A stretch of 64,000 bases of DNA from Narthecium ossifragum. Taxonomy: Eukaryota > Streptophyta > Magnoliopsida > Dioscoreales > Nartheciaceae. How positions within the stretch are numbered: position 1 is the first letter of the stretch; every line of letters starts with the position of its first letter. The DNA lies in NCBI GenBank assembly GCA_963920575.1, contig OY986970.1, forward strand, positions 15,583,588-15,647,587. Direction: 5' to 3'. The notes below the pieces were generated by a model. That model was not told the origin of the DNA, did not search any database, and worked only from the letters and a program-made list of their open reading frames with translations. Shown in pieces: positions 11,522 to 62,436 of the stretch. Made by a program: the position numbers and the translations under genes.

Positions 11522-11523
11522 AT

Positions 11524-11540
11524 TGGTATCAGAGCTAGGT
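11524..11540 (+). other. Copia-A primer binding site, initiator tRNA-Met
   Basis: TGGTATCAGAGCTAGGT begins two bases after the 5' LTR and matches the classic complement of the initiator tRNA-Met 3' end used by plant copia elements. Confidence 0.92.
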
Positions 11541-11586
11541 CTCTATTTTTAGTAGTGTAACAACCCTTAAAGAATCCTATCTAGAG

Positions 11587-13335: not shown

Positions 13336-13368
13336 TCTCCTATTTGTAGGAATGCATGAGATCCAAAA

Positions 13369-16300: not shown

Positions 16301-16384
16301 GATATTCGAACCAAACCCTTGAGTGAAGATAGATTTTTATATCTGCTGAGGGAGCTTGGGATGTCCAATGGATGTCCAAAATAA
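13369..16384 (+). pseudogene. pol: Copia-A pol: protease, integrase, RT, RNase H, decayed
   Basis: The domain order is copia-type. Protease has WYLDSGCSRHMTG near 13397, with frame disturbances between about 13440 and 13560. The integrase zinc finger (WHRRLGH...CDAC) is near 13788-13905 and the core at 13980-14330. RT carries FAPVARIEAIR and YIDDIIFG near 15520. RNase H ends at 16384. Stops are TAA 13916, 13970, 14186 and 15002. Catalytic damage: the integrase Glu in the usual VVERKNR motif is Lys, the first RT Asp (normally in QMDVKSAFL) is Asn, and RNase H lacks about 25 residues after HSRTKHQ. The enzyme is dead several times over. Confidence 0.92.
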
Positions 16385-17083
16385 AGGAGCTAAAAAGAAA
16401 AGGTATGGTCAGCTCTTTATCTATTTTTCATACCATATCCAACTTGAATGCTAAATTTTGGTAAATTAAGTTAATATCATGATTGATGAGTGTTTTTAAG
16501 CTCATAATATTTAGTTACACGTGTATGCAAAGTTTTGTGATGTTTTGATTTAAAAATGATTTTAAATTGAATTTCAAAACTAACTTTCTGGAACTGACGG
16601 TCGATCCAGACTTCCTGATGATCGATCGTGCGTACATTCACACTGGACGGTCGATCGTGCGTACATTCGCACTGGACAGTCGACTGCCAACTCTTTGGAT
16701 CGACCGTGGGCTTTCATTTTTAGACCTATTGTGTGCCACGGTCGACCGCCAACTTCTTCGGATCGACCATGCGACTTAAATACTACACATATTGCTCGCG
16801 ATGGTCGACCGCCAATATCATTGGATCGACCGTGCGATTGCTTTTTTACACAAAATGTTCGCGACGGTCGACCGCCAACTTCTCACAGTCGACCGCCACG
16901 GATCGTGTGACAATAAGTGAGGGTTTTTTAGTCATTTTATCTCTAATCTCCCCTTCTAACTTCCGATGAAGCCTCCATTTTTTCTCCTGGTTCGACTATG
17001 CCCTAGCCTCTTCAACAACCGCAGCCCACTGCTCTTCCTCTCTCAAAACTACGATCAACTCTTCCCCTCTCAAAACCCTAACC
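16385..17083 (+). promoter_or_regulatory. Copia-A spacer with palindrome array before the extra ORF
   Basis: An AT-rich spacer (16385-16590) precedes an array at 16596-16910. At least three pairs have the form GGTCGA-N17-TCGACC, that is, TCGA cores 21 bp apart, and all begin GGTCGACCGCCAA. A CT-rich leader of about 170 bp follows, then ATG 17084. Copia-A' has the same array at 33210-33440. The array upstream of an intact ORF suggests an internal promoter. No clear TATA box is visible here; Copia-A' has a ttataac at the matching place. Confidence 0.55.
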
Positions 17084-18322
17084 ATGTCGTGCACCATGCC
17101 TTGCACCAAGAATGTCGGCCCTCCTCCACCTGAGGAACCAAGTCAAGCTGGGAAAAGGAAGACCGCAGTAGCACAACAAAAGACCGGGACGAAGAAAACC
17201 AGAGGTTCGCATGGTGGTTCTTCATCGAATCCTCCACCTACTCCTTCCTACGACGAGTACTTCTTCCTAGATAAGGATAGGTATAACTCATGGCCTAAAT
17301 TTAAGGATAAGTTTGTAGTCTCAGGTAGAGCTATTCAATTGCCTATAGGAAAGGAATATGTAGTTGAACGATTTTTCACTGAGATGGGTTGGAAGAAATT
17401 CTTAGAGATGCCTCAGTACACTTATGCCGAAATGGTTAGATATTTCTATTGCAATATGACTGAGGATATTGATTATGAAGGATGTGTGGCCCGTAGTAGC
17501 TATATCTATGGAAACGAATTCAAGATTACCGTAGAATGGTTGAATGAGTTACTAGATGCACCAAATCAAGGAGAGTGCATATACTTTACTTCCTATGAGG
17601 ACCTCAACCAAATTGATAAGGATAAACAAGGGAGAAAGGCAATCCTTAAGGATGTCCTAGTTGAGAAAAATACTATAGAATTAAATAGCCTACACCAACA
17701 TTTTAGAGAGCTTGCCCATTTTCTAGGAACAAATCTTTTTCCTATGCTTGGCCACTATGATCACTTGAAGCCCATCCATGCCTATGTTCTTTCTTGCATG
17801 GTTAGGAGGAAGCCTCTAAACCTAGGTTATCTCCTTATCAAGGAGATGCTTAACCTTAATGCTAGGCAATCACTACCTTTTGGGGGGCTTCTAACAAGAA
17901 TTTTCCAAGCCCTTATCCTCAACCTAGCTGTTGATGAACGAAAACCCCTTTCTCAACCCTTCAACAAATCTACCTATAAAAGGATGAAGGCCGCCAAACG
18001 ACCTTTAGGCCTCGGTTTTCCTAATATCAGTGGTGATGAAGAAGACGAGCATCAAGAAGAGCATGATGAGGAAAATTTAGGGGGAGAAGAAGATGCGCCC
18101 AGACATCAAGGAAAATCTTCCCATAGCCGAGCTCGTCGCAACACGGCACAAAGACTTGATGATCTTGATGCTAGACTGGAAAGAATGGAAGTGAATCAAG
18201 GTGACATAAAGACTATCCAAGCACAAATCACGGCGGATCAAGCAAAGATGTCAAAGCAACTTGAAGACATTTTTTCCTACATCAAAACTGAATTCCCACC
18301 TTCCACACCTGCAGTTGATTGA
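17084..18322 (+). CDS. Copia-A extra (env-position) ORF, intact
   Basis: This 412-residue ORF lies between pol and the 3' LTR. The N-terminus (1-60) is basic and Ser/Pro-rich with KKTRG-type clusters that could be a nuclear signal. Residues about 70-310 form a conserved core with RYFYCNMTEDIDYEG, GNEFKITVEWLNELLDAPNQGE, HAYVLSC and LPFGGLLTRIFQ. Residues 315-350 are acidic; residues 360-405 look coiled-coil (LDDLDARLERMEVNQ). No signal peptide or membrane segment is seen, so it is not an obvious envelope protein. It resembles the 'putative plant transposon protein' domain (Pfam PF20167, from memory). It is fully open although the element's gag-pol has many stops. Copia-A' carries a broken relative. 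Function unknown. Confidence 0.8.
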   Translation: MSCTMPCTKNVGPPPPEEPSQAGKRKTAVAQQKTGTKKTRGSHGGSSSNPPPTPSYDEYFFLDKDRYNSWPKFKDKFVVSGRAIQLPIGKEYVVERFFTEMGWKKFLEMPQYTYAEMVRYFYCNMTEDIDYEGCVARSSYIYGNEFKITVEWLNELLDAPNQGECIYFTSYEDLNQIDKDKQGRKAILKDVLVEKNTIELNSLHQHFRELAHFLGTNLFPMLGHYDHLKPIHAYVLSCMVRRKPLNLGYLLIKEMLNLNARQSLPFGGLLTRIFQALILNLAVDERKPLSQPFNKSTYKRMKAAKRPLGLGFPNISGDEEDEHQEEHDEENLGGEEDAPRHQGKSSHSRARRNTAQRLDDLDARLERMEVNQGDIKTIQAQITADQAKMSKQLEDIFSYIKTEFPPSTPAVD

Positions 18323-18832
18323 TCCTAAATCCCCATCTTTCTTACGTGTTTTTTATGATGCCAAAGGGAGAGAAAAAGTGTGATGAATGAATGTTGAAAA
18401 ATAGCCCTACATTTCATATCTTTACTCTTGTATTTTGGAAAACCTTATTTTGAAATGAAAGTCTTGTAAATCCAAAGTTTTCTGAATGATTTTGAATGGA
18501 AGTATTGTATGCAAATGTTGGAATCTTTAGAATGAAAGGCAAATGTGTTTGGATATTGTTATGATGTACTAGTACAATGTTTTAATCTCAATGTTCAATA
18601 TGAAATCACTTCATGAGAGCTTAAATGTTATTATTGAAAAGAAGTAAACATATTAAAATCCAAATTATTCTGTGAGCATATCTTAAATGGAACTTCTCAT
18701 ATCATTTTAGAGATATATGACTTATGTGCATCTTCATAATTCACTTTAGAACACTTTTCTTGAAAGAAATGGATGCATTGATTAAGGGGGAGTCAAAATA
18801 TTTTATCATCACATTTAAAAGGATTGTCATCA
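18323..18832 (+). other. Copia-A 3' untranslated region
   Basis: AT-rich sequence with no ORF. The complement of the same sequence occurs at 31290-31790 in Copia-A'. Nothing else is recognisable. Confidence 0.6.
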
Positions 18833-18848
18833 TCAAAAAGCGGGAGAT
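18833..18848 (+). other. Copia-A polypurine tract
   Basis: caaaaagcgggagat lies directly before the 3' LTR, the expected position for the plus-strand primer. Copia-A' and Copia-B have G/A-rich tracts at the same place. Confidence 0.75.
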
Positions 18849-19893
18849 TGTTGATCCTAACCTTGTTTTGATGATGTCAATATACATTAAATGATAAAAT
18901 ATATGTTTAATATTTAAACCCCTTTAATTGGAAATCTTAAATTCAATATTTAAGTCACTTTTGTACTGAGATCGACCGTGGGAATGTGACGGTTGATCCA
19001 TGGATTGACCGTGTGGTTGCACGTTGGATGCACCATACTTGGCTATATGCATTGTTGGCTCACGGTTGATCGGTGCATCGACTGTGGGAAGCCATTGTCA
19101 TGACAGAGATTGACGAACGATGCGACGGTCAATGCGACGGTCGACCATGGAGCATTCATGAAGAAAAGTGAAGACGCGACGGTCGATCGGAGCATCGACC
19201 CTGGGAAGCCATTTTCTTAACAGAGGCTGACGGTCGATGTCACGGTCGACCGTGAGGCGTGACGGACGATGCATGGATCGACCGTCGATCAAAAAGGTTG
19301 AGTTTTTATTCATGACGGGCGATGCATGAATCGACCGCTAGCAACGTGTAGAGTAAAAAAACTAGCCGTTGGAGAGTTGCAGAGAGCCGTTGGAGCTCCT
19401 TGTTGAGCTGGTTGAGGCCCAGATATAAGTAGTTCCTTAATGTAAACTTGTCACAACTTTTATCATTATTATTGAGATCATCTGAGCAAGTCTTAGCAAA
19501 GTTTTCTACTTATTCTCTTTTGAGCTACAACCTTTGTAAACCTTCTTCAAGTGTGAAGAGGTACTTTGAGAGTTATTCAATAGCAAGTAGCTGTGAGTGT
19601 AAGGTCACCAAGCACCATGAAGCTTGGAGGAAAAGCTTGTAAACGATTTGCAAGTAGTGGAACCTCAAGGGGAGCCTTGAGAGAAGTGGACGTAGACCAA
19701 GAGTTGGGTCGAACCACTATAAAATCGGTGCCATCTCTCTAACCTTCCTTCATATTATTCTTCCATGATATTTTGTTTTAGTCTTCATTTCATCTACAAG
19801 CATTTAAGGTGTTAGCTCTCTCCTACCTGATATTTTCATTAATCTAGTTTTTCGAAAAGAGTCCAATTCACCCCCCCCCCTCTTGGACCTTCA
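18849..19893 (+). repeat. Copia-A 3' LTR
   Basis: This 1045-bp copy pairs with 10476-11521. Most differences are substitutions and small length changes inside the palindrome array (18963-19340). The TATA-like atataag is at 19423-19429. A run of about twelve C residues precedes the end. Confidence 0.93.
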
Positions 19894-19898
19894 GTACG
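19894..19898. repeat. Copia-A target site duplication, right copy
   Basis: gtacg matches 10471-10475 exactly, so the Athila-1 ORF reads on from 19899. Confidence 0.95.
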
Positions 19899-22228: not shown

Positions 22229-23755
22229 TGATAAGACTTGAAAACTGCACAAAACACCATTGTAATTTTGCTTTGTTGGTCTCCGAGCAATGCTTGACTT
22301 ACTACTTTTATCCTATTTCAAGTATAACATACTCTATTATGAGTTAGATCAACTTTGAGCTAAAAGAAGCATATTCGGGCAATTCGGGCATGAAGGATCG
22401 ATCTTCCTCTATTGAAGGGATCGATCCTATTCGACCAGCAACGGGACAAAGAACAAGCATAAAGGGATCAATCTTTCTTCAAAGGAAGGAGTGATCCTCC
22501 AAGCGACGTATCAAGACAACAATAGAAAGATCGATCCTACTCGACTAGTAGGATCAATCCTTCACGGGGCGTCACCAGCAATTGAAGATAGTAGGATTGA
22601 TCTTACTCCGGGGAAGGATCGATCCTTTGCGGCCAGAAAGGAAAATCAACGACTCAGATCTAACCCGTGAGAGGATGTTTTCCTAGGTTATAAATAGTCA
22701 GTTTTTAGGGATTTTTTGGGGTTTTATTCTTGGACCTCTTTGGGGGAGAGTTTTCCTGTCCTTTTTGTGAACTTTTCTTGGAAGATTCTTTGGAGGGGAT
22801 CCATGGCGGAAGGAGTTCATCGACTTTCATCTATGGATCGACCCCTAAAGATGAGTAGCTAAAACCCTAGCCATGGGATTCTTATGATGTAACTAGGGTT
22901 TCTACTAGGGATTTTTTAGATCTAGGGCTTGTATAGATTATTGATTGACTTATACGGATTGATTCCTATTCCTTTTATACCTTGGTGTCGATTTCTTGCT
23001 GGATGTATGGATTGTTCTCGCTTGCACTTGATTTCGGAGCTTGTGGATGATAGGGCTTGGATTTGATTCATCTAATTAGGAGTACCATACTAGTCCCATG
23101 GTATCTCGGATGAAATCTTCTTCATAATTAGGGATTGTATAGTGCTAGAACCACTATAGTAGTGCTAGTCCCACTACGTTCTATCTCTAATCCTTGATAC
23201 ATCCTACCTTTCTAGATTTGGCCATCAAGATGCTAACCCATCTTGATCTTACACCTATCCATATCCGTACTATTACTTGCGATGAATTCATCCTGATAAG
23301 AGGGTTCATTAGCAGTGAACGTAACTAATCATTCGATCACTGATTCTTTAGGTAATGGTTATTTCCAACAAGAAATCCTAACCAGAATTTATTGAGTGAT
23401 AAGGAGAACTAGCCATTCACTTATCAACTATTAGGCAAGCCATTCATCGTGCTTAATGTGCCATGATCTTAGGAAGACATGGCAGAACCTTAGTTATTGA
23501 TTAAGAATCATGTGGTCTCTTCTCTCGTATTCATAAACCCTTTAGTATAAATTTAGTTTAATATCAAACCGTAATCTTTTCCCAACTCATTGGTAGGAGA
23601 CTTGCTAAGCGTTCAATCTCAATCACCTTAGTCCCTGTGGATTCGACTCAGACTCTCCGCTATCTACTAGTTTCTTAGTAGTTAAAGTAGAGCACCGGAA
23701 ATTATAGTAATTTTGGTTAGACTTGTTAAACCATGACACTTTTCAAGCGTTATCA
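22229..23755 (+). repeat. Athila-1 3' LTR, complete
   Basis: This 1527-bp LTR runs from tgataagac to gttatca. Its U3 contains GATCGATC-type palindromes paired at 22396/22419, 22466/22489 (second degenerate), 22529/22552 and 22595/22617. The TATA box tataaata is at 22689-22696, about 65 bp after the array. The right flank aggac continues a Tekay-type LTR, so Athila-1 inserted about four bases into that LTR. Confidence 0.9.
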
Positions 23756-30098: not shown

Positions 30099-31266
30099 TG
30101 AAGGTCCAAGAGCGGGTTGAATTGGACTCTTTTCGAAAATCTAGTTTAATGGAAAAACCAGATAGGAGAGAAGTAACACTTTAAATGCTTGTAGATGAAA
30201 TGAAACTAAAGCAAAATGCATGCAAGAATACAATCAATAGGATTAGAGAGATGGCACCGATTTTATAGTGGTTCAACCCAACTCTTGGTCAACGTCCACT
30301 TCTCTCAAGGCTCCCCTTGAGGTTCCACTACTTGCAAATCCCTTACAAGCTTTTTCTCCAAGCTTCCTGGTGCTTGGTGACCTTACACTCACAGCCACTT
30401 GTTGTTGACTATCTCTCAAGATACATCTTCACACTTGAAGAAGGTTTACAAAGGTTGTAGCACAAAAGAGAATAAGTAGAAAGCTTCTCTAAAATTTGCT
30501 CAAATGATCTCAATAATAATCATAAAAGTTGTGGCAAGTTTACATAAAGGAACTACTTATATTTGGGCTTCAACCAGCTCAACAAGGAGCTCCAACGGCT
30601 CTCTGCAACTCTCCAACGGCTAGTTTTTTACTCTGCGCATTTCTTGCGGTCGATCCATGCATCGTCCGTCACGTATAAAAACTCAGCCTTTTTGCTCGAC
30701 GGTCGATCCACGCATCGTCCGTCACTCTCACGGTTGACCGTGACATCGACCGTCACATCGTCCGTCATCCTCTGTTAAGAGAATCGCTTCCCAGGGTCGA
30801 TGCTCGGATCGACCGTCGTGCCTTGACTTTTCTTCATAAATGCGCCACGGTCGACCGCTGCATCAACCGTAGCATCGTCCGTCAGGCTCTGTGAAGTTTT
30901 ATGCTTCCCAGGGTCGATGCACCGATCGACCGTCGCTTCTTCACTTTCTTCATTAATGTGCCACGGTCGACCGCCGCATCGACCGTCGCATCGTCCGTCA
31001 GGCTCTGTGGAGAAAAACGCTTCGCACGGTCGATGCACCGATCGACCTTGAGCCAATAACGCATATTTCCATGTATGATGCATTCAACACGGTCGATCCA
31101 TGGATCTACCGTCACATTCCCACGGTCGATCCTTGCATCGACCGTCAGTACAAAAATGACTTAAATATTGAATTTAAGATTTCCAATGAAAGGGGTAATA
31201 AATATTAAACATGTATTTTATCATTTAATGTATATTGGCATCATCAAAACAAGGTTAGGATCAACA
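30099..31266 (-). repeat. Copia-A' 3' LTR
   Basis: This 1168-bp LTR reads tgaaggtcc...ggatcaaca on the plus strand. A palindrome array at about 30640-31150 holds more GGTCGA/TCGACC pairs than the Copia-A LTR, which probably explains its extra length. A TATA-like sequence (complement of ttatattt, near 30556) lies downstream of the array on the minus strand. Confidence 0.88.
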
Positions 31267-31799
31267 ATCTCCCCTTTTTTGATGATGATAATCCTTTTAA
31301 ATGTGATGATAAAATATTTTGACTCCCCCTTAACCAATGCATCCTTTTCTTTCAAAAAATGTGTTCTAAAGTGAATTTTCAAGATGCACATAAGTCATAT
31401 ATCTTTAAAATGATATTAAAAGTTCCATTCAAGATATGTTGACATAATAGTTTGGATTTTAGCATGTTCACTTCTTTTCAATAATAATATTTAAGCTTTC
31501 ATGAAGTGATTTCATATTGAATATTGAGATTATAACATTGTATTATTACATCATAGCAATATCCAAACACATCTGCATTTCATTCAAAGGATTCCAACAT
31601 TTGCATACAATACTTCCATTCAAAATCATTCGAAAAAACTTGAATTTACAAGACTTTCTTTTCAAAACAAAGTTTTCCAAAATACAAGAGTAAAGATATG
31701 AAATGTAGAAATGTAGGGCTATTGTTCACATTCATTCATCACACTTATTCTCCCCCTTTGGCATTATCAAAAAGATGTAAGAAGGATGAGGAATTAGGA

Positions 31800-33043
31800 T
31801 CAATCAACGGAAGGAGTGGTACGTGGGAATTCAGTCTTGATGTAGGCAAAAATGTCTTCAAGTTGCTTAGACATCTTGGCTTGATCTCCGGTGATTGTTG
31901 CTTGGGAAGTCTTGATGTCTCCTAGACTTACTTCCATTCTTCCCAACCTTGCTTCAAGCTCATCAAGTCTTTGTGCCGTGTTGCGACGAGATCGGCTACT
32001 GGAAGATTCTCCTTGATGTCCTTCAAGTAAAGGCTCTCCCCCTAAATTTTTCTCTTCATGCTCTTCTTGATGCTCATCTTCTTCATCTCGACTGACATCA
32101 GGCCAACCGAGGCCTAAGGCTCATTTGGCGGCCTTCATCCTTTTGTAGGTAGACTTGTTGAAGGGTTGAGAAAAGGGTTTTCGTTCATCAACTGCTAAGT
32201 TTAGCGTGAGGGCTTGGAAAATTTTTGTTAGAAGCCCCCCAAAAGGAAGTGATTGCCTAGCATTAAGATTAAGCATCTCCTTGATAAGGAGATAACCTAG
32301 GTTAAGAGGCTTCTTCCTAACCATGCAAGAAAGAACATAGGCATGGATGGGTTTCAAGTGATCATGATGGCCAAGCTTAGGAAAAAGGTTTGTTCCTAGG
32401 AAGTGGGCAAGCTCCCTAAATTATTGGTGTAGGCTATTTAATTCTATAGGGTTTTTCTCAACTAGGAGAGCCTTAAGGATTGCCTTTCTCCCTTATTTAT
32501 CCTTATCAATTTGGTTGAGGTCCTCATAGGAAGTAAAGTAAATGCACTCTCCTTGATTTGGTGCATCTACTAACTCATTCAACCATTCTATGGTAATTTT
32601 GAATTCATTTCCATAGACATAGCTACTAAGAGCTACACAACCTTCATCATCTATATCCTCAGTCATATTGCAATAAAAATACCTAACCATTTCGGAATAA
32701 ACGTACTGAGGCATCTCTACGTATTTGTTCCAACCCATATCAGTGAAAAATTGTTCAACTACATGTTTCTTTCTTATAGGCAATTGTAGGGCTCTACCTG
32801 AGACAACAAACTTATCTTTAAATTCAGGCCAGGAGTTATACCTATCCTTATCTAGGAAGAGGTAGTTGTCGTAGGAAGGGGTAGGTGGAGGATTGGATGA
32901 AGAACCGCCTTGCAAACCTTTGGCTTTCTTTGTCCCAGGTGGTTTCTTTGCTGCTGTCGTCTTCCATTCCCAGCTTGACTTGGTTCCTCAGGTGGAGGAG
33001 GGCTGGCATTCTTGGTACGAGGAATGGTGCACCGGCTGGTTAG
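31800..33043 (-). pseudogene. Copia-A' extra (env-position) ORF, broken
   Basis: This aligns along its length with the intact Copia-A ORF (17084-18322). The start ATG is lost (agccgg in place of atgtcg), and a frame change follows the PSQAG motif near 32910-32990. In-frame stops include one after DKDK (about 32490), one near 32420 and one at 32121. The core motifs (YFYCNMTEDID, NEFKITIEWLNEL, PFGGLLTKIFQ) and the C-terminal coiled coil (to the stop at 31800) remain readable. Confidence 0.85.
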
Positions 33044-33602
33044 GGTTTTGAGAGGGGAAGAGGAGATCGATATTTGAGAGAGAGGAGGAGCACGGTCGTT
33101 TGAAGAAGTTAGGGCACGGTCGAACAAAGAGAAGAATGAAGGGTTGATCGGGAGTTATAAGGGGAGATTGGAGAGGAAATGATGAAAAAGCCCCTACTTA
33201 AGTTGTCACACGGTCCGTGGCGGTCGACCGTAAGAACTTGGCGGTCGACCGTCGCAAACATTTTGTGTAAAAAAGCCATCGCACGGTGGATCCAACGAAG
33301 TTGGCGGTTGACCGTGGCACACAATAGGTCTAATTGTCTAAAAATAAAAGACCACGGTCGATTCGAGTAAGTTGGTGGTCGACCATCCAGTGCGAATGTA
33401 CGCACGGTCGACCGTCAAGAAGTCTGGATCGACCGTCAGTTCCAGAAAGTGAGTTTTGAAATTCAATTTAAAATCATTTTTAAATCAAAACATCACAAAA
33501 CTTTGCATGCACGTGTAACTAAATATTATGAAACAAAAATCACTCATCAATCATGATATTAACTTAATTTACCAAATTTAGCATTCAAGTTGGATATGGT
33601 AT
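33044..33602 (-). promoter_or_regulatory. Copia-A' leader and palindrome array before the extra ORF
   Basis: The CT-rich leader contains ttataac on the minus strand. GGTCGA-N17-TCGACC type pairs at about 33210-33440 match the Copia-A array at 16596-16910. The spacer up to 33602 aligns with Copia-A 16435-16590. Confidence 0.55.
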
Positions 33603-34449: not shown

Positions 34450-34494
<45 letters not shown>

Positions 34495-37162: not shown

Positions 37163-37211
37163 CTATACCTAGGATCCTCTAGGGTCGTTAAACCTCGAAT
37201 ATAGAGATGAG

Positions 37212-37223
37212 GCTCTGATACCA
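37212..37223 (-). other. Copia-B primer binding site, initiator tRNA-Met
   Basis: On the minus strand TGGTATCAGAGC starts two bases after the 5' LTR end. Confidence 0.92.
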
Positions 37224-37225
37224 AT

Positions 37226-51284: not shown

Positions 51285-52859
51285 TGATAAGACGTGAAAA
51301 GTGCATAAATCACCCTTTTAACTTGGCCTTGTTAGTCTCCGAGCAAGGCCTTACTGATGGATTTTACCCTATTACAGGTACAAGTGCCCTCAACGAGGAT
51401 TGGATCAAGTTCCGAGCTTAAACGATGTCATTCGGGCCAGTTTTTATGAAGAAGATCGATCCTGCATGGAAGAAGGATCGATCCTTTGAAGTGCATCAAG
51501 AAGGAGCCAATCAGGACACCAAGGATCGATCCTATGTCATGAGAGGATCGATCATTTTTGCACATTTTCCCAGTGACAGAACGCAAATTCTAGAGGATCG
51601 ATCTTCACACACTGGAGGATCGATCTTCATCGGGTTGCAGCCAGACTTCAAGAAGAAAAGATCGATCCTTTCCTAAAGGAGGATCGATCCTTCACGGGAC
51701 CAGCGATCACACGAAGCGAATGATCGATCCTTCACCCTATGAGGATCGATCCTTTGATGCCAGCCGAGCAAAATCAATGGCCCATATCTAATCCGAGTGA
51801 GGGAGGCTTGTTTACTATAAATAGACCCCTTAGGGGGGATTTTGGGGGTCTTCTCTTAGTTTTCTCCAGCCCTTCTAGGTTTCTTTACCCAATTGAGAGG
51901 AGGACTTCTTGGAGGAAACCCATGGAAGGAGAGCTTCATCACCCTCCATCCATGGATCCAACCAAGATGAGTAGCTAACTTCCTTTATCTTGGGATTTCC
52001 ATGTAGTTGTAGGATTCTTTTGTAGTTTTCTTAGGGTTTTGATGTGTAATCTTTAGGGATTGATCTGTTGTATGGATTTGAGCATTATTTCTCTATCTTT
52101 GTACATGGATTTCATTTGATGAATGGATGAATGCCTTTCTTTGGTATGAGTTAGAACTTGTGCATGATAGGTGTTTGTTGTTATTCCCCAATGAGTTGGA
52201 TGTGCTAAAAACACATCCAAATCTATTGGGAGGATTACTAGCCCTAGATTAGAGATTAGGGATGCTAGAACCATCCCTATCTCTCTAATCAAAGGATCCA
52301 TTCTATCTTTCTCTTGCATTGGATTCGAGGTGCTAGAACCATCTCGATCCAATGCCCGACTCCATGCAATATCTTTTTCTTGCGACGAATCGATCTTAAT
52401 CGAAGGTTCGTTAGCGACGATAGAAGCTAATCACTCTTTCGTCGACTTTGTGAATGTGAGTATTTTCGGCGGATGATCCTAAACCGATTTCCGTTGAGCG
52501 ATAAGTGAGGCTAACCACCCGCTTGTCGACTTCTTGATTTCGATCGTCCCAATTGAATTACACACCTTAATTCCTTAGGAGGCTACATTAGGACCTACAA
52601 TGAAATGGAGATCCCAAGACCTCTCTATATTAGTTACCTTTCTTTTCACTTAGTTAATTACTTTAATAGTCATTAATCCAAAACCCAAATCATTTTAGCT
52701 AGTTGTTTGGAGTTATCTATCGAGTACGTTAGTCATTTCTCATTTCCCTGCGGATCGACCCGGACTCCCGCTAGCTACGTAGTAGTTAGTAGGATTCGGT
52801 ATAAATTGTAATCTTTGACGCCCTAGTCACTTTTAACGACGAGTGGTTTGGGTTCGTCA
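51285..52859 (+). repeat. Athila-2 5' LTR
   Basis: This 1575-bp LTR runs from tgataagacg to gttcgtca. U3 carries ten GATCGATC palindromes in five pairs, every pair 22 bp apart start to start. The TATA box ctataaatag is at 51815-51824. Confidence 0.95.
51454..51753 (+). promoter_or_regulatory. GATCGATC pair array in Athila-2 U3
   Basis: Palindrome starts: 51454/51476, 51524/51546, 51596/51618, 51660/51682, 51722/51744. Each pair is exactly 22 bp apart; pairs follow each other by 62-72 bp. The array ends about 63 bp before the TATA box, nearly the same distance as in Athila-1. Confidence 0.9.
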
Positions 52860-52865
52860 AATTTT

Positions 52866-52884
52866 TGGCGCCGTTGCCGGGGAC
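52866..52884 (+). other. Athila-2 primer binding site, tRNA-Asp type
   Basis: TGGCGCCGTTGCCGGGGAC lies six bases after the 5' LTR and matches the complement of the plant tRNA-Asp 3' end. The leader from here to 53121 has no ORF. Confidence 0.9.
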
Positions 52885-53121
52885 TTGTTGATTTGAATTT
52901 CTTACTTGATAAATTCCTTCCTTTCAATTAGATTGCTTTATTTTCTTTTATTATAAAATACCAAAAATAGAACGTTGCTTATATTGTATATCTTTTTGTG
53001 GTTGTAGGTGAAGCTTCCGAGCGGCGAAGCGACTCATGTACGGGTGAGGATACAAAGTTCTTGGACCAGCACACTGTAATGTATCTCTTACCTTGTATGG
53101 TCCAAGTTCTTATATGTGTGA

Positions 53122-56100
53122 ATGAGTGTTCATGAGGATTCGGATTCCGATTTAGACATCACCTTGCAAGAATTCCTAGATTCTAGGACATCTTCAAGCA
53201 TACCCTTGCATAAGGACCTCCTTTTTCCTCAAGTCATGGATGCTCCCAACCCGGACCCCAATCCTAATGTCAATCCAATCCCGGACCGTAGGAGTATGAG
53301 GGATTATTATGTCCCTACTACTTTTGCACCTACATCGGGCATACAACAACCCATTGTTCAAGCCGCACATTACGAGTTTAAGCCTCAATTCCTTCAATTC
53401 CTTTCAAACTTTCACGGCTTAAGTAATGAGGACCCTTACTATCACCTCGAGGATTTTCTTGAAAAGAGTTCCACGGTCAAAATCCCAAACTTTACCGAGG
53501 ATGCAATGAGATTGAAATTGTTTCCATTTACCTTGAAGGGCAAAGCCAAGCATTGGTTAGGATCCCTTGAGTCTCAAACGATCACCACATGGGACCAATT
53601 ACAAAGTGCTTTTCTAGAAAAGTTCTTTCCTATCGCTAAGACTCATGAAATGAGAACCCAAATAGCAACCTTTCGTCAAGAAGATGACGAACCTTTTCAT
53701 GATGCTTGGGATAGGTTTAAAGAGCTTCTTAGGAAATGCCCACACCATCAAATCCCTAAGTGGTCTCTTGTTGATTATTTTTACAATGGCCTTAGAATAC
53801 GTCATCAACAAGATGTAGACACCGCTTGTGGTGGGGTGTTCATGACAAATCCCTATGAGGACTCATGGGTTTTATTTGGAAAGCTTGCCATTAATTCCCA
53901 AAACCATGCCTACACTTCAAGAAATGTTAGGGAGACCTCAGGTGCTAAGGGACAATCCAACCCGAGAGGATTTTTAGAGTTATCCGAAGCTACCCGTGTT
54001 TCACAACAAATCGATACTCTAAGTAGGAAAGTTGATCAAGTTCTTGCTCATTCTTTGAATCAAATTCCTACTCCTCCTTCTTCATCGAGCTACCCACTCA
54101 ATTCTCCATCATTGGGAGAACTTTGCTTCCTTTGTTCGACTCCCGGCCACGTAGTTACCGATTGCCATTTGGCCGGTGAGTATCCGGAGCTCGTGCAAGA
54201 GCATATTAATGCGGTCTTCAATCAATCCAAGCCTACTTATGACCCTTATCCAAATGCATACAATGCTAGGCCTCCGATTTCGGGCAATCAAGCCCCAAGC
54301 TATCCTCCTAGGTACCAAGCGCCATATCATTCTAATCCACCTCCACAAAATCAATCCACCTACCGGCCACCTCAAGCTCCTCATGCATATTCACCTCAAG
54401 CCCCTAATGCATATCCCTCTCAAGTGGCGAGTTATCCTCAATCCTCTCATCCTCCAAATTGGAATCAAAGGCCACCTGGGCCTTCCACATATCAAGCTCC
54501 TTATCAAGCCCATCAAGCCCCTCAAGCTCCGAAACGTGATCCGTGTATTGAGGAAAGGCTTCTCAAGGCTTTGGACTCTTTTGAGACAAGTACCCAACTT
54601 TTGCATTCTCATTCCCAATCCATTGCAAAGTTGGAAGTGCAAATAGGCCAATTGGCCAATACTATGGCAAGAAGGGAGGAGGGTAGACTTCCTAGTCAAC
54701 CCATAGCAAACCCTAAAGGCCAACATTTTATCGATTCCACTCACGAGGAAGTGCAAGCGGTCACTACCCTCCGGAGTGGAAAGATCTTTCCTAATGTTGA
54801 GATGCCTAAAGACACCACATTAGGGCAAGGACATGAACCTCATTTGTCTACTTCGATGAATGATTCTCAAGCATCACCTCCTCATGCTCCTCATGATTCT
54901 TCAAGTCAATTGCCATCTTTCAAGGAAACTGAGCCTAGTCTACTCGATCCTTTACCAACCAAAGCTTACATTCCTAAGGCTCCATACCCGCAAGCACTAG
55001 TTGATCCTCAAGCTACATCCCAACCTTGGAAGGTGGGCAAGTATGAGGAGATGCTAGAACTTTTCAAGAAAGTTCACATCAACCTTCCCTTGTTGGATGC
55101 CATCAAGCAAGTGCCTTCTTACGCCAAATTTTTGAAAGACTTGTGTACCCATAAGAGGCAATCCAAATCTCATGTCTCTAAAAAGCTCTTCCTAACTGAG
55201 CAAGTTAGCTCTATTCTTCAACTCGATCTACCTCCGAAATTGAGAGACCCCGGCACTCCTACCATCTCTTGCATCATAGGAGATCAATTGATTGAGGGGG
55301 CTCTTCTTGATTTAGGAGCTAGTGTGAATCTCATGCCCTACTCCTTGTTTTGTAAATTTGGCTTAGGAGAGCTCAAGCTGACCTCGATGACTTTGCAATT
55401 GGCCGATAGATCTCTCAAGACACCACGGGGTGTTCTTGAAGACATATTAGTCAAGGTTGATCGATGTGTTTTCCCGGTCGATTTTGTTGTCTTAGACATG
55501 GAGCCCGGACCAAGGCATAAACAGTCCATTCCCATCATTCTAGGTCGACCATTCCTTGCCACAGCCAACGCTTTAATAAATTGTAGGAATGGAGTCATGA
55601 CCGTTACATTTGGCAACATGGAGATACGGCTTAACATTTTTGATTCATCTAAGCATTATGCATGTGAAAAAGAATGTTTTATGATTGATGTATGGAATGA
55701 TCATGACGATGTTGAATGCTTGAATGATTTACTTGGTAATGATGAAGAGGTTGATGATGGTGGTTATGATATTAATTTTCCGATTTATCAAGCATTTTAC
55801 GAAGACATACCCAAGTATGAGAAGGACGCTTGTGATATCAATAGGCCAGTTTATGAGGTCTTTAGTGAGGATGTATCAATTGTTGCCAACTCCTATGATA
55901 TTAATATGCCTATCTATGAGGTGTTTTGGGAGGACATAACTAATGTTGTTGGGCCGAATTTGGTTGCCTTTCAAGAAAGTTTATCAATCTCTCATGATTG
56001 TGATGATGAAGGTCAAGATATGTTGTTGGCATTAGAGACTTTTGAAGTTTTGGATGAGGTCTTGCCCATTCTTGAATATGATTACATAGGTAATGATTGT

Positions 56101-56424
56101 GTTACTCCGTGGTGGAGACATGACCTTGATTTGTCGCCTTCTATATCTTCCTCCACAATAATATTTGCCACAACACTATCATTGCTCATCTCGAATGCCA
56201 CCCCATTTCTCGCGTTCATGCATACATTCATTTGGCCATATAAAACCGTTAATAAAGAACGGTACATCTTTTACGCTAAAATGGACACAAGGTTAAAATG
56301 GCTTGTGATGAAAGAAATGTGGTTTTATCATTGGCATTTAAATAAAGTTCTTCGAAAATGGCTTCGTTCTCGCATTTCTAGATGCGACCACCATTTAGAG
56401 GGGACATCGAAATTTTATGGGTGA
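53122..56424 (+). CDS. gag: Athila-2 gag-protease ORF with novel C-terminus
   Basis: This 1100-residue open frame begins with an acidic N-terminus. The gag core spans about residues 75-260 (KAKHWLGSLES, FLEKFFPI, FHDAWDRFKELLRKCPHH). A CCHC knuckle is near residue 334 (CFLCSTPGHVVTDC), followed by a Pro/Tyr/Gln-rich linker. The protease has D-L-G-A-S near residue 730 and ILGRPFLATANALINC. Where pol should follow there are instead three imperfect 21-22-residue repeats of (Y/C)DIN-x-P(I/V)Y-x2-F-x-ED (55760-55940), a hydrophobic stretch (STIIFATTLSLLISNATPF) and a basic tail. No stops or shifts are present. The protein could package RNA and be processed, but RT and integrase must come from another element. 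Confidence 0.92.
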   Translation: MSVHEDSDSDLDITLQEFLDSRTSSSIPLHKDLLFPQVMDAPNPDPNPNVNPIPDRRSMRDYYVPTTFAPTSGIQQPIVQAAHYEFKPQFLQFLSNFHGLSNEDPYYHLEDFLEKSSTVKIPNFTEDAMRLKLFPFTLKGKAKHWLGSLESQTITTWDQLQSAFLEKFFPIAKTHEMRTQIATFRQEDDEPFHDAWDRFKELLRKCPHHQIPKWSLVDYFYNGLRIRHQQDVDTACGGVFMTNPYEDSWVLFGKLAINSQNHAYTSRNVRETSGAKGQSNPRGFLELSEATRVSQQIDTLSRKVDQVLAHSLNQIPTPPSSSSYPLNSPSLGELCFLCSTPGHVVTDCHLAGEYPELVQEHINAVFNQSKPTYDPYPNAYNARPPISGNQAPSYPPRYQAPYHSNPPPQNQSTYRPPQAPHAYSPQAPNAYPSQVASYPQSSHPPNWNQRPPGPSTYQAPYQAHQAPQAPKRDPCIEERLLKALDSFETSTQLLHSHSQSIAKLEVQIGQLANTMARREEGRLPSQPIANPKGQHFIDSTHEEVQAVTTLRSGKIFPNVEMPKDTTLGQGHEPHLSTSMNDSQASPPHAPHDSSSQLPSFKETEPSLLDPLPTKAYIPKAPYPQALVDPQATSQPWKVGKYEEMLELFKKVHINLPLLDAIKQVPSYAKFLKDLCTHKRQSKSHVSKKLFLTEQVSSILQLDLPPKLRDPGTPTISCIIGDQLIEGALLDLGASVNLMPYSLFCKFGLGELKLTSMTLQLADRSLKTPRGVLEDILVKVDRCVFPVDFVVLDMEPGPRHKQSIPIILGRPFLATANALINCRNGVMTVTFGNMEIRLNIFDSSKHYACEKECFMIDVWNDHDDVECLNDLLGNDEEVDDGGYDINFPIYQAFYEDIPKYEKDACDINRPVYEVFSEDVSIVANSYDINMPIYEVFWEDITNVVGPNLVAFQESLSISHDCDDEGQDMLLALETFEVLDEVLPILEYDYIGNDCVTPWWRHDLDLSPSISSSTIIFATTLSLLISNATPFLAFMHTFIWPYKTVNKERYIFYAKMDTRLKWLVMKEMWFYHWHLNKVLRKWLRSRISRCDHHLEGTSKFYG

Positions 56425-57614
56425 GCTTGCATTGTGTCGAGCTAGAGACGGTAAATCAAGCGCTTGATGGGAGGCAACCCATCCCTTTTTTTCGTATTTT
56501 TCTAAATTTGTTTGTTATTTCTTCTTTGCATGATTGATTGTTTTTCCCATTATTTGCATGTTTGATTTTGGTGCGTTTTTGATTTAATCTTTGTTGGAAT
56601 AATTGTGATGTCAAGATGGTATGTTAAATTTGTGGGATGATTGATGTGTTGTCTAGTTTCGAGGTTTGTATTGTGGTATTTTAATGCCTAAGGAGCCTTG
56701 TATTCATGTTTGGGGAGTATGGGGCGTTTTCCCAGGCTTTCAGCCCAGTTTTGCAGTTTGGTACAAAAAAGATCGATCCTCCAAGCGGAGAGGATCGATC
56801 CTTTTTGTCCGATTGAGTGTACGCTGGAACCTGGGGGTGAGAAGATCGATCCTTCACTCCCTCATGATCGATCATTTTTGCGAATTATTTCGTGACAGGG
56901 GACTGGTTTTGAGAAGATCGATCCTTCCATCCCTGATGATCGATCATTTTTGCGAATTTTTTCGTGACAGAGGGATGGTTTCTGGATGATCGATCCTTGA
57001 GGATAGAAAGATCGATCCTACTCACTTGTACACGTCAGCACGACTTAAGTGAGAACCGTTATGATGCTGCCACGTGTTCAAAAGATCGATCTTCCCTCTC
57101 TCAAGAGATCGATCTTTTGCGGGGATGGTTAAAAAAATATAAAGCCGCGGGAGATCGACTTAGGGCCCCAAGCCCTAAGATCGATCCTCTCTTCCCCTTC
57201 CCCTGTTCGCCCCGTTGCCACCTCTCTTCTTCGCCGCCTCCAACCGGTGCGCCACCCACTCCTCCGCCCGGATTTCACCGCCGCCGACCTTCCCAAGGTA
57301 TCCGCGACCACCCTCCAGTTCCCTTCGCCACTCGATCGAGCTCCCGTCCCCCACATTTACCCCACCTCCTCTCACATCTCCGTGATCGGCGGGGTCCTTT
57401 CGCCTCCATCGCAAATCGCCGCCGCCCTCCACCTCCCAGTACCTCCACTACCCCTCCCCTTCACTCCACTTCCCTCAATCGACCCCGGCGCCGTCCACAT
57501 TTCGTCATCACCTTCCATCGAGCCGCCGGTGCCGCCTCATCCTTCAAGCTCGTCGTCGCCGGCCATCTTTGTGGTTCCACTTCACCCCAAGGCATATCCT
57601 TTCCATTCACCTCG
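56425..57614 (+). promoter_or_regulatory. Athila-2 internal array, TATA box and CT-rich leader
   Basis: After the post-pol hairpin motif (56450-56481) and an AT-rich spacer, palindromes are paired at 56771/56793, 56844/56866, 56916/56938 and 56988/57010 (all 22 bp) and 57084/57107 (23 bp). Then come aaatataaagcc at about 57134-57145, a further palindrome at about 57178, and a 400-bp CT-rich leader to ATG 57615. The open frame through the leader from 56964 is low-complexity and not called. The layout matches a second promoter for the 3' ORF. Confidence 0.6.
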
Positions 57615-59011
57615 ATGGTTCGCAAGCATACCGCCGCCATCAAGAAGGCCGCCGGGAAGGGCAAGGCTGCGGCATCCTCTCCTTCTTCCTCACCAGTCGG
57701 GCAAGCTTCTTCCACACCAGCCTCGCAGCCGGCATCTTCTTCATCTTCCTCTGGGCCGGCCACTGATTCACCTTCTCCTCCTACACGGCCGGTCCGTGCC
57801 TCGCGTGCCCCCGCCACTTCGTCCCCAGCTCCGGCAGCTTCCAAGAGGAAAGCCTCCACTGCCCCTTCGTCATCCAATCCTCGCCGATCCAAGAAGCTGA
57901 AGAAGCCCAGGCCTCCACTGCACCCACTGATGTTCGAGGCCTAGATCCGCAGTGGCGACGGGAGGTAAAACTCGAGTACACCTTTGACGTATCCTTCTTC
58001 CGCACGATCGAGCATGCGCAAGATTCCGTCGCCACACTGGAAGCCCGCGGTTGGCTGCCCTTCTGCACCCCCTCCACCACTGTTTACCCACGGCTGGCCT
58101 GCATGTTCTACCAGAACATGAAGGCTATTCCCTGCGGTAATGAGAGGGACGAGGCTGGTGATGCCCCGAGCCGGGCCTTGGGCTTCACTTCGATCATTGA
58201 CGGCGAGGATATCACATTCACTGCCCGGGACGTGGCTGCCCTCTTGGGTGTCCCTCGCCACTCCCCTGGTCTCCACCGAGCCACCCCTGAGGAGCTGCCT
58301 CATGAGGTGGATGCCCAGCTGCTTCTCCACCCAGATCGCACAGGAGAGGGCAAATTTGTGCGGGCAGAGCTGCCCCCTCAGATGTGGTTGATCGACGATA
58401 TCTTCCGCCGAAACATTTACCAAACCGGCCACGCCCAGTATAGGACTGGCAAGTGGTTGTGTTCACTATGGTTTTTGGCTAAGTCGTGGTCGATCGACTT
58501 GGCCCAGCAGGTCATCGAGGACATGTCCCAATTTTATTGTGGAGCGGTTCGGGACCGATCGGACAGTTTTAACGATAAACCCGTCTCGCACCCCTGCCTT
58601 ATTTCGGCTTTTCTCGCTAGCCAGGACCTAGTCCCTGAGGGCGAGCCTACTGTTTCGGATGCGGCCTTCAGGTTTGCCCGCTTCGGTAAGGCCACCTGGG
58701 CCAAGGTCCTTAGCCATATGAGGAGAGCCGACCATCCTCGTCCTCAGCCGAGACCCAGTAGGACCCAGTCGACCCCAGAGTTCGGGCCTGTTGAGCACCC
58801 GACTATGGGTGAGATCTATAGGGAGCATCGGGCATTCCAGGACGCGGTGCTGCAGAGGTTGGACGTGGTAGACGCGCGCATCGGCGCCCTACACCAGGTC
58901 ACGTCGAGTATCCTCGCCCGTCTCGATGCCATCCACCCTCCTCCTCCACCTGTCACAGATCTCGCTTCTTCCCATCCGTTTACTTGTTCAGAGCCGGCAC
59001 CTCAGGGATGA
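57615..59011 (+). pseudogene. Athila-2 env-position ORF with one frameshift
   Basis: ATG 57615 starts a basic, Ser/Pro/Ala-rich N-terminus (MVRKHTAAIKKAAGK, RPVRASRAP, RRSKKLKK, a likely nuclear signal). That frame ends at 57944. The conserved core continues in the -1 frame from about 57905: YTFDVSFFRTIEHAQDS, PRLACMFYQNM, a D/G-x-I-x-F-T segment, MWLIDDIFRRNI and ARFGKATWAKVLSHMRRA. A C-terminal coiled coil (VLQRLDVVDARIGALHQ) ends at 59011. Architecture parallels the Copia-A extra ORF. The shift may be a one-base mutation or a -1 recoding site. No signal peptide or clear membrane segment. Function unknown. Confidence 0.8.
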
Positions 59012-60845
59012 TAGACTATATCTAGGGGTATTTTCTGTATTTTCTGGATGGTTGGAGTGTATCTCTTTTTGTGTTTGGAGGGTGGGTAACTTTTTGTATT
59101 CCATTGCTCTACTTTTGTATATGGTTGGCATCGATGATTGTGGATATATATATATACATGATTTTTGGCGGTGGGGGTGTGCCCCGGGTGTGTCTGTCTG
59201 AATGTGGATGTATGTGTCTGTCTGTGGATATATGTATATGAATGTGGATGGATGCTTGTAAATGGTTGGGGTAGTTACAATTCTGTATTTCAATTTGAAT
59301 GTAAACATGTTGGATGCAATTGGCATCTTTGTACAGCCCTTGGGCGTATTGAATAAATAGAGGGAATGCTGCCCAATTTTTCTCAAAAATTTATCATATC
59401 TATTCTTTGATTTCCATAATGCTATGGGTGGTATTTTCTCTATGTTTTTACAGGGCATACGAGCTTTGGATAGCAACGCAAAATACGACATTTTGACATC
59501 ACAATAATACGGTTTTTCACGACTAACCTTGACTGTAACTCCTTTTATATCTCTTGTCAAGGTTACATTTTCGTCCATTTCGTCACAAGGTTATCTCTAC
59601 ACTTTACCCTTCTTCCGTGCTTGAGGACAAACCCGTTTAAGTTAGGGGGTATGATTGCATCATGTTTATAGATAACCTGTGATCGATCTACAGTTAGTCA
59701 CACGTTTATTTGATTGGTAAATATGCGAAAAATTTTCAACTCGTATGCTAGCATGGATGACTATTGCATAATTCATCTTGATTCTCATGCTTTGTAAAAT
59801 TTGGCAAATCATTTCATGAGTAGTGTTATTCTTCTACTTTAATTCTTCTTGTCATGCATTAAGGACATTTAAGTGATCCAATCCACTTGTGCACTTACAC
59901 TTGTATGAGGGGGCAAGTAGTGTTTAATTGGGAGACCTTGATAGATTGGGAGTCCAAGGCTATTTACACTCGATTGAGATGACTTGTAGTAGGGTTCGAA
60001 GCCAAGTTAGAGGCCGAGAGCCAGGTTAATAAAAGTGACTAGTCTTGATTCGTAGCCTTCTAGGCTCGAGTAGTTAGACCCGAGGGGTGCTTCAACACCT
60101 AATGCCCCAAAGCCATCTGGCTTGGGAGTCATTGATTTAACACTCGTTAAATGGGCCTAGTAGAAAGCTTAAGGGATCAAGGCATTGCACGGTCACACTA
60201 GTATCAAATAAAAGCTTGTTGGTCAGCTGTGATTCGTGGCCTGCTAGGTTCGGGAAATTAAGCCCGAGGGGTGTCTCAACACCCAGTGCCTTTAGGTCAT
60301 CTGACCGAGGAGCCACTGGCCTAAATCCTGTTACATGGGCCTAGTAGAAAGCCTAAGGGATCATGGCATTGCACGACCACTGGTTTTAGTCAGAAAAAGA
60401 AAAAAAAAGAAGAAAAGAAAAGAAAAAAAAAAAAGAACAAAGATTTTATAAAACTTGTCATTTGTTCGACCGGTGTAAAACGCTAAGGATGTCTAGTTTT
60501 GATTGGAACCCTACTTGAATGACTATGAGACCCCGAATACTTGAGTAGCGACTTTCACTACACGGATTGCTTAGATGAGCTTTAATCTTGTTCAAGTGCT
60601 TTGAAGTGTTTGAATGATGCTATTGATGGAATTATTCGCTTGCATTTTACTTGTGCTATGTGTTGATGGATGGAACTATGCATTTGAATCTATGTGTGCA
60701 TATGAATGGATTTTGATCGTATAAGAACCAAAGCTTTATGAGAAGTGACTAATTGTTGATCGGGGGATTGTTCTTTTTGAGTTTCTTATTTCTTCTCTTT
60801 CCCTTCTAGTTATTTTTCTTTTGCTTTGCTCGAGGACTAGCAAAG
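59012..60845 (+). other. Athila-2 3' untranslated region with structured tandem duplication
   Basis: A TG/TA-rich part (59100-59260) is followed by AT-rich sequence. Then come two about 145-bp copies offset by 184 bp (60047-60191 and 60231-60375) that keep small hairpins. A purine tract (60391-60437) and aacaaagatttta follow. There is no credible ORF. Confidence 0.75.
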
Positions 60846-60861
60846 TTCAAGTTAGGGGGTG
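60846..60861 (+). other. Athila-2 polypurine tract
   Basis: ttcaagttagggggtg ends directly at the 3' LTR. Confidence 0.7.
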
Positions 60862-62436
60862 TGATAAGACGTGAAAAGTGCATAAATCACCCTTTTAACT
60901 TGGCCTTGTTAGTCTCCGAGCAAGGCCTTACTGATGGATTTTACCCTATTACAGGTACAAGTGCCCTCAACGAGAATTGGATCAAGTTCCGAGCTTAAAC
61001 GATGTCATTCGGGCCAGTTTTTATGAAGAAGATCGATCCTGCATGGAAGAAGGATCGATCCTTTGAAGTGCATCAAGAAGGAGCCAATCAGGACACCAAG
61101 GATCGATCCTATGTCATGAGAGGATCGATCATTTTTGCACATTTTTCCAGTGACAGAACGCAAATTCTAGAGGATCGATCTTCACACACTGGAGGATCGA
61201 TCTTCATCGGGTTGCAGCCAGACTTCAAGAAGAAAAGATCGATCCTTTCCTAAAGGAGGATCGATCCTTCACGGGACCAGCGATCACACGAAGCGAATGA
61301 TCGATCCTTCACCCTATGAGGATCAATCCTTTGATGCCAGCCGAGCAAAATCAATGGCCCAGATCTAATCCGAGTGAGGGAGGCTTGTTTACTATAAATA
61401 GACCCCTTAGGGGGGATTTTGGGGGTCTTCTCTTAGTTTTCTCCAGCCCTTCTAGGTTTCTTTACCCAATTGAGAGGAGGACTTCTTGGAGGAAACCCAT
61501 GGAAGGAGAGCTTCATCACCCTCCATCCATGGATCCAACCAAGATGAGTAGCTAACTTCCTTTATCTTGGGATTTCCATGTAGTTGTAGGATTCTTTTGT
61601 AGTTTTCTTAGGGTTTTGATGTGTAATCTTTAGGGATTGATCTATTGTATGGATTTGAGCATTATTTCTCTATCTTTGTACATGGATTTCATTTGATGAA
61701 TGGATGAATGCCTTTCTTTGGTATGAGTTAGAACTTGTGCATACTAGGTGTTTGTTGTTATGCCCCAATGAGTTGGATGTGCTAGAAACACATCCAAATA
61801 TATTGGGAGGATTACTAGCCCTAGATTAGAGATTAGGGATGCTAGAACCATCCCTATCTCTCTAATCAAAGGATCCATTCTATCTTTCTCTTGCATTGGA
61901 TTCGAGGTGCTAGAACCATCTCGATCCAATGCCCGACTCCATGCAATATCTTTTTCTTGCGACGAATCGATCTTAATCGAAGGTTCGTTTGCGACGATAG
62001 AAGCTAATCACTCTTTCGTCGACTTTGTGAATGTGAGTATTTCCGGCGGATGATCCTAAACCAATGTCCGTTGAACGATAAGTGAGGCTAACCACCCGCT
62101 TGTCGACTTCTTGATTTCGATCGTCCCAATTGAATTACACACCTTAATTCCTTAGGAGGCTACATTAGGACCTACAATGAAATGGAGATCCCAAGACCTC
62201 TCTATATTAGTTACCTTTCTTTTCACTTAGTTAATTACTTTAATAGTCATTAATCCAAAACCCAAATCATTTTAGCTAGTTGTTTGGAGTTATCTATCGA
62301 GTACGTTAGTCATTTCTCATTTCCCTGTGGATCGACCCGGACTCCCGCTAGCTACGTAGTAGTTAGTAGGATTCGGTATAAATTGTAATCTTTGACGCCC
62401 TAGTCACTTTTAACGACGAGTTGTTTGGGTTCGTCA
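60862..62436 (+). repeat. Athila-2 3' LTR
   Basis: This 1575-bp copy is identical in length to the 5' LTR, with about 17 substitutions and no indels by hand count. One palindrome is changed to GATCAATC (near 61320). Confidence 0.95.

Follow-up and report, generated by a model that had tools for sequence, protein, structure and literature searches.

The described system that comes closest to the arrays reported here is that of the Sireviruses, a group of Ty1/copia retrotransposons. Thirteen Sireviruses carry palindromic repeated motifs in their LTRs upstream of the TATA box (Bousios et al. 2010, PMC2829016). The nine that bear an env gene have such motifs in the linker as well, where 77 of 79 copies lie upstream of env, and the four env-less ones have no linker motifs. 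In the available sections of that paper the motifs are termed Sirevirus-specific, the comparison being with other Ty1/copia elements only.

Among Ty3/gypsy elements, sunflower Athila encodes a PF20167 protein 3' of pol that is predicted to be nuclear (PMC11728184). What the "env-like" genes do in plant retrotransposons is still an open question (PMC7264820), and the possibility that proteins encoded by Athila and Tork shape the methylation of these elements has been raised as a question (PMC12844716). The VANC arrays of VANDAL elements are a functional analogue with a proven function; binding of VANC21 to the motif YAGTATTAY was demonstrated (Hosaka et al. 2017, PMC5735166).

Here, a window of 64,000 bp from Narthecium ossifragum (contig OY986970.1) was analysed, in which regularly spaced palindromes had been noticed in the LTR of an Athila-like element. 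Our main reading, to which we give a probability of roughly 50%, is that these arrays are promoter-proximal cis-regulatory elements bound by a dimeric protein, which may be the PF20167 protein of the element itself.

Results

Retrotransposons in the window

The window holds a nest of plant-type LTR retrotransposons, named E1 to E5, and fragments (Table 1). The LTRs of E5 are 98.859% identical over 1578 alignment columns, its termini are TG...CA and a GTGTT target duplication flanks it on both sides. A gypsy-type gag (PF03732) and a protease were detected by Pfam; reverse transcriptase, RNase H and integrase were not found in E5, either by Pfam or by tblastn queries with three pol segments from elsewhere in the window. 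The Pfam scan covered 19 of the 23 ORFs, those other than 19808-20371, 33568-34179, 45048-45647 and 58988-59590.

The 5' LTR of E5 is followed by the PBS-like TGGCGCCGTTGCC at 52866, and a PBS-like TGACGCCGTTGCC was present at 979. The assignment of E5 used an Asp-tRNA-type PBS, which we take to be a hallmark of Athila; this site, the gypsy gag and a PF20167/ATHILA-like 3' ORF point to an Athila-like element. The hallmarks of Sireviruses are the PBS TATCAGAGC, the PPT AGGGGGAG and a copia reverse transcriptase, and E5 differs from them in having TGGCGCCGTTGCC and a gypsy-type gag. E2, on the other hand, has the Sirevirus PBS at 11527, the PPT at 18785 and a copia reverse transcriptase (RVT_2). 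The other Athila-like element, E1, has diverged from E5 and encodes RNase H and integrase (Pfam). E2 was inserted at 10471/19904 inside the accessory gene of E1, so that one PF20167 element splits the PF20167 gene of another.

Table 1. Coordinates of elements, palindrome arrays and accessory genes in the window
Feature	Position	Strand	Remarks
E1 internal arrays	7396..9537	.	Seven pairs at 23 bp, two of them with a one-mismatch partner and the other five exact
E1 accessory gene, first part	9812..10471	+	PF20167 score of 24 bits, under the cut-off (45)
E2	10476..19893	+	Sirevirus-like Ty1/copia, nested in E1
E2 internal array	16600..16893	.	Pairs at 20-21 bp
E2 accessory ORF	16970..18322	+	PF20167, 72 bits
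E1 accessory gene, second part	19904-20452		Beyond nested E2
E1 U3 array	22396..22624	.	Three pairs at 23 bp, last pair at 22 bp
E3	30099..33602	-	Sirevirus-like fragment related to E2; polypurine tracts retained
E3 PF20167 gene, degraded	31803-32963		82% identical to E2, contains stops
Further Sirevirus-like copy	33603-38272	-	Copia primer site at 37220
Arrays of unclassified repeated element	39280-39420, 45495-45645		20 bp, one pair at 22 bp
E5 (Athila-2 of the initial annotation)	51285..62436	+	Athila-like Ty3/gypsy; LTR match, Pfam
E5 LTRs	5' 51285-52859, 3' 60862-62436		LTR alignment
E5 U3 array	51454..51751	.	Ten GATCGATC, five pairs at 22 bp
TATAAATA box in E5	51816..51823	+	Sequence motif only
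E5 internal array	56771..57186	.	Four pairs at 22 bp, one at 23 bp; 57179 unpaired
E5 accessory N-terminal ORF	56940..57944	+	NLS-like basic stretch; first ATG 57615
E5 accessory PF20167 ORF	57767..59011	+	Other frame; 45.1 bits against a cut-off of 45
E5 3' LTR array	61031..61328	.	Four exact pairs; last site 61321 is GATCAATC, spacing also 22 bp

Paired palindromes in E5

The ten palindromes described for the U3 region were recovered at 51454/51476, 51524/51546, 51596/51618, 51660/51682 and 51722/51744, and the spacing within all five pairs is exactly 22 bp, as had been claimed. E5 has 10 exact sites in its 5' U3 and 11 in its internal array. The same 22-bp rule had been extended to four internal pairs, which is correct for 56771-57017, although a fifth internal pair, 57084/57107, is spaced at 23 bp. 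All 10 pairs of E5 have an identical exact core. Each site forms a 12-bp palindrome with the consensus ARGATCGATCYT in E5 and E1; among 41 exact sites, the base at -2 is A in 35 and that at +9 is T in 39.

The distances between neighbouring U3 pairs do vary (40, 42, 48 and 50 bp). The sequence between the two sites of a pair had also been said to vary, and this holds for the centre of the linker, where positions 4-11 have a mean identity of 0.25 among the five U3 pairs (null 0.25), but not for its ends, where positions 1-2 and 12-14 are 0.84 identical because the site itself is a 12-bp palindrome.

In the whole window, GATCGATC occurs 63 times against 1.27 expected, a count reached in none of 100 shuffles, and 60 of the 63 fall within arrays, whose intervals were set after the sites had been seen, so that these densities are descriptive. 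When 10 sites were placed at random in 298 bp, at least five pairs at one distance of up to 40 bp arose in 2 of 20000 trials. A chance origin of the array was rejected on the shuffles and the placement trials. A CpG island over the cluster is one trait of the Sirevirus repeated motifs. In E5 the CpG observed/expected ratio is 0.94 in the U3 array and 1.14 in the internal array, compared with 0.53 in gag-pro; the GC content of the arrays is 0.46, which is below 0.5.

Position of the arrays and the accessory gene

The arrays lie before the TATA box of the U3 and before the accessory gene. The end of the U3 array is 64 bp from TATAAATA in both E5 and E1; this equal distance may reflect descent, since the stretch between array and box can be aligned between the two elements (about 70% identity over 150 columns). 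A TATAAAG is present at 57138 in the internal array of E5 and absent at the counterpart in E1. An internal array was found upstream of the PF20167 gene in E1, E2, E3 and E5, which are all the elements with a tblastn match to it. PF20167 was not found in E4, in the fragment 50380-50710 or in the copy at 33603-38272, although paired arrays occur there.

The accessory gene of E5 (56940-59011) is spread over two overlapping frames, one with an E1-like N-terminal part and the other with the PF20167 domain. The two parts of the E1 gene match E5 by tblastn with 52% identity over 136 residues and 51% over 188 residues. In E5, E1 and E2, an NLS-like basic stretch lies ahead of the PF20167 domain (in E5, in a different frame), and no 19-residue segment with a mean hydropathy above 1.5 was found in the accessory proteins. 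The two structure models had a mean pLDDT of 35 and 40, which is too poor for a DNA-binding fold to be recognised; the E2 model contains a confident C-terminal helix, with ten-residue means up to pLDDT 90, and is otherwise unusable. Homologues of the E5 and E2 accessory proteins were absent from the database searched, which may not cover plants, and a PDB sequence search with the E2 protein gave a best E of 0.29. No related loci were found in viral contigs; a pattern scan of these returned 50 stretches among the matches listed, with one pair each, from which nothing was drawn.

Spacing in the other elements

Pair spacing is element-specific: both the U3 and the internal arrays use 22 bp in E5 and 23 bp in E1, in a comparison of Athila-like elements that rests on these two copies. 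Of the E1 U3 pairs at 23 bp, one is exact, one has a one-mismatch partner and one deviates in both sites, by one mismatch in one and two in the other; in the last pair, at 22 bp, there is one mismatch. Four of the 16 exact sites in the internal arrays of E1 have no partner. When the U3 arrays are aligned, the E5 pair 51660/51682 (22 bp) corresponds to 22529/22552 in E1 (23 bp) with a one-base gap in the linker. Random spacing in other copies of the family, which the initial annotation had named as a result that would speak against its rule, was not seen in E1, the one other Athila-like family found; the value itself changed to 23 bp.

Related paired arrays were detected in 12 further regions of the window and at 34628-34719. 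The LTRs of E2 carry CGGTCGAY-type sites paired at 12 bp, E3 has pairs at 12 bp in its LTR and at 21 bp internally (33223-33433), and the minus-strand copy at 33603-38272 has two internal pairs at 21 bp (34628-34719). Altogether, the Sirevirus-like LTRs contain 24 pairs at 12 bp, six of them from the fragment 50380-50710, and the Sirevirus-like internal arrays nine pairs at 21 bp and one at 20 bp. The unclassified E4 has four pairs at 20 bp and one at 22 bp. In the arrays at 39280-39420 and 45495-45645, each site pair is flanked by GCTCC...GGAGC-like arms, followed in one copy, on the minus strand, by AATAAATAG.

Among 72 successive RTCGAY distances of up to 35 bp in the arrays, 62 are 12, 20, 21, 22 or 23 bp, which do not amount to 62 independent events because the copies are related (LTR pairs, and E2 with E3). 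Two of the 20-bp distances fall between 12-bp pairs rather than inside a pair, and the remaining ten of the 72 are 7, 26, 29, 30, 32 or 33 bp.

Discussion

Selection or copying

One alternative is that the arrays have no function and that a long unit was tandemly duplicated, its spacing being retained by descent alone. Several features favour duplication: the units are 62-72 bp long, identity outside the sites is 0.80 between internal units 2 and 3, U3 spacer 2 is similar to the second and third internal spacers (z 4.6 and 6.6), and E1 contains a 134-bp internal repeat. The initial annotation had named an origin of the pairs only from recent duplication of one long unit with matching linkers as a result that would refute it; internal units 2 and 3 are indeed a recent duplication, whereas the linker centres of the U3 pairs are unalike.

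In five aligned unit comparisons, however, the site columns are identical at 40/40, 32/32, 16/16, 16/16 and 30/32 positions, with non-site identities of 0.60, 0.54, 0.58, 0.80 and 0.69 and site-versus-flank p values of 7.5e-8, 3.4e-7, 0.0008, 0.11 and 0.003 in the same order, a contrast that is somewhat inflated because the unit alignments are anchored on the sites. Sites were thus retained where the flanks are only 0.54-0.60 identical. Five of six U3 spacer comparisons give z of 1.2 or less (the other 3.0), yet every U3 pair keeps its 22 bp, and the core shared by all pairs of E5 stands beside unequal gaps between them. Duplication alone was therefore rejected on the site-versus-flank contrast and the low similarity of the U3 spacers; it was already hard to hold, and we regard it as highly improbable.

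Since the sites are kept while the flanks diverge and the U3 linkers are no more alike at their centres than chance, sites and spacing appear selected, and the arrays look like old duplications under selection for both, with some recent duplication. Six sites at pair positions, five of them in E1 and the other in the 3' LTR of E5, carry one mismatch, and all six resemble CpG transitions; the older state of site 61321 is visible in the other LTR, and that of the other five is presumed.

DNA sites or RNA stems

If the arrays are selected, the selected object could be a stem-loop in RNA or a cruciform, with the palindromes as stems, serving RNA packaging or as a source of small RNAs. Compared with shuffled sequences, folding is better in eight of the nine single pairs tried (z of -2.9 or below; the other -1.6), the whole U3 array reaches z -6.7, and palindromes in maize Sirevirus LTRs are described as hotspots of small-RNA mapping in the available text of PMC5311732. 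Self-palindromic repeats, though, yield stems by construction, and loops need no spacing that is exact to one bp. The 24 pairs at 12 bp carry T/A 16, T/G 3, C/A 5 and C/G 0 times at their left/right positions (Fisher p = 1), covariation in the 10 internal pairs also gives p = 1, and the complementarity of linker ends is no greater within a pair than after re-pairing (p = 0.39 for U3, 0.31 for internal pairs). RNA hairpins as the selected object were rejected because these tests, which have low power, show no covariation, although stems do form; stem-loops are in our view an improbable explanation.

A possible protein binding the arrays

The initial annotation had proposed that a protein binds as a dimer to one face of the DNA. 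Self-palindromic sites suggest one dimer per site, and a spacing of about two helical turns suggests two dimers on nearly the same face. The conservation of the sites amid divergence and the recurrence of spacings near one or two turns are consistent with this, while 22 bp is not universal, the spacing in E1 being 23 bp.

From this anatomy, we infer binding, dimers, activation and a candidate binder as follows. A nuclear protein would bind each 12-bp palindrome as a dimer, and two dimers at a spacing of 22 or 23 bp, facing nearly the same side of the helix, would form one unit. Five such units upstream of the LTR TATA box would drive or unsilence transcription, and the second array could play the same role for the accessory PF20167 gene. 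If the PF20167 protein of the element is itself the binder, a feedback loop would be closed. The accessory protein is favoured as the binder because the internal arrays track its gene, but this is the weakest step of the model and, taken alone, we consider it rather doubtful. The NLS-like stretches, the lack of a strongly hydrophobic segment and the nuclear prediction for the sunflower Athila protein speak in favour of the model. Against an own binder stand the paired arrays of E4, the fragment 50380-50710 and the copy at 33603-38272, where no PF20167 was found, and the point that a single protein of a Sirevirus-like element would need to bind pairs at 12 as well as 21 bp, and against a fixed-pair model stand the unpaired sites, namely those among the exact internal sites of E1 and 57179 in E5.

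The main rival is a host transcription factor, for whose binding unrelated retrotransposon families would each have acquired paired RTCGAY sites, because E4 and the fragment 50380-50710 have arrays and no PF20167 was found in them. Host-factor sites are common in LTR promoters, for example in Tnt1 and ONSEN. The RTCGAY core is shared by the Ty3 and Ty1 families, E4 and that fragment, but the flanking bases (ARGATCGATCYT compared with CGGTCGAYC) and the spacing vary by family, and we know of no host protein that binds this palindrome. Sites of stress factors have been noted inside Sirevirus motifs, and yet the internal arrays follow the accessory gene both here and in the available account of the Sireviruses (PMC2829016). 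We regard a host factor as a somewhat unlikely binder, if a more serious candidate than either of the alternatives above.

Returning to a protein encoded by the elements, both superfamilies may share a self-regulating module in which the "env-like" PF20167 protein would be a dimeric DNA-binding activator or anti-silencer with paired target sites both in the LTR promoter and ahead of its own gene, their spacing co-evolving with the protein. The spacings that could reflect such co-evolution are 22 versus 23 bp in the two Athila-like lineages and 12 and 21 bp in the Sirevirus-like ones; we put this extension forward as a speculative one.

Comparison with described systems

The initial annotation knew of no described LTR motif with this grammar, but the layout of the arrays had already been described for Sireviruses (PMC2829016). 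As there, a self-palindrome in many copies is clustered before the LTR TATA box and before an env-like gene. E5, with 10 + 11 copies, exceeds the at least eight copies per element of the Sirevirus repeated motifs, the LTR cluster ends shortly upstream of the TATA box in E5 and E1, and the internal arrays of both precede the PF20167 gene. The motif of a Vitis Sirevirus, CGGTCGACCG, is of the type seen in E2 and E3, and that of Tnd-1, ACAATCGATTGT, has a TCGA core without CGG-CCG, like the sites of E5 and E1. The CGG-CCG core, found in every published motif but that of Tnd-1 in the text available, is present in E2 and E3 and absent from ARGATCGATCYT. E5 and E1 differ from the Sireviruses, which are Ty1/copia, in being Ty3/gypsy, and strict pairs with a fixed spacing are not mentioned in the parts of PMC2829016 available. 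Three features seem new here: that Athila-like elements of the Ty3/gypsy superfamily have this layout, that the spacing of the pairs is fixed, and that a PF20167 gene lies downstream in both groups.

Within the open-licence literature, the scope of our search as opposed to subscription papers, no paired motifs were recognised in Athila in the text available, and only PMC2829016 was recognised, mostly from listings, as describing GATCGATC or GGTCGACC as a retrotransposon LTR motif. Two other occurrences of GATCGATC were set aside, being a ligation junction in PMC5288721 and part of a primer in PMC3116503, as far as the accessible text of each goes.

Sunflower Athila resembles E5 in its PF20167 accessory ORF, and promoter arrays are not mentioned in the available text (PMC11728184). 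Retand, also a Ty3 element, has tandem arrays in the region from pol to the 3' LTR and encodes an accessory protein for which DNA binding is predicted; it differs in that its TRP28 gene is antisense and belongs to PF04195, and the accessible part of the paper mentions no paired palindromes (PMC11963269). The VANDAL/VANC system is similar in combining short repeated non-coding motifs with a non-transposase protein, with motif and protein differing among related families, as here, but it belongs to a DNA transposon and involves DUF1985 rather than PF20167 (PMC5735166). DUF1985 was not detected by Pfam in the five accessory ORF pieces, up to E 10. VANC arrays are confined to non-coding parts, as are those described here going by the share of GATCGATC inside arrays, whose intervals are post hoc. 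The words palindrom, dimer and spacing are absent from the main text of PMC5735166.

If the arrays bind the products of the env-like genes, these genes would be regulators and not envelopes, and pair spacing would be a simple signature for finding such systems. A self-regulating module, if it exists, would amount to a retrotransposon counterpart of the VANC system and would explain why the internal motifs of Sireviruses track env. If a host factor binds instead, the layout shared by unrelated retrotransposons of one genome would point to one route of expression.

Further repeats in the window

Apart from the arrays, five perfect 21-bp tandem copies of CTCGATCGGGAAAGATCGAAG, another TCGATC...GATCGA unit, were found at 23975-24080, and a lone copy, diverged in sequence, is present around 49815-49835. 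At 40526-40599 there are 3.4 copies of a tandem repeat of 22 bp, AGCCAAGGCCCTGGCCGAACAA, with a sequence unrelated to that of the arrays.
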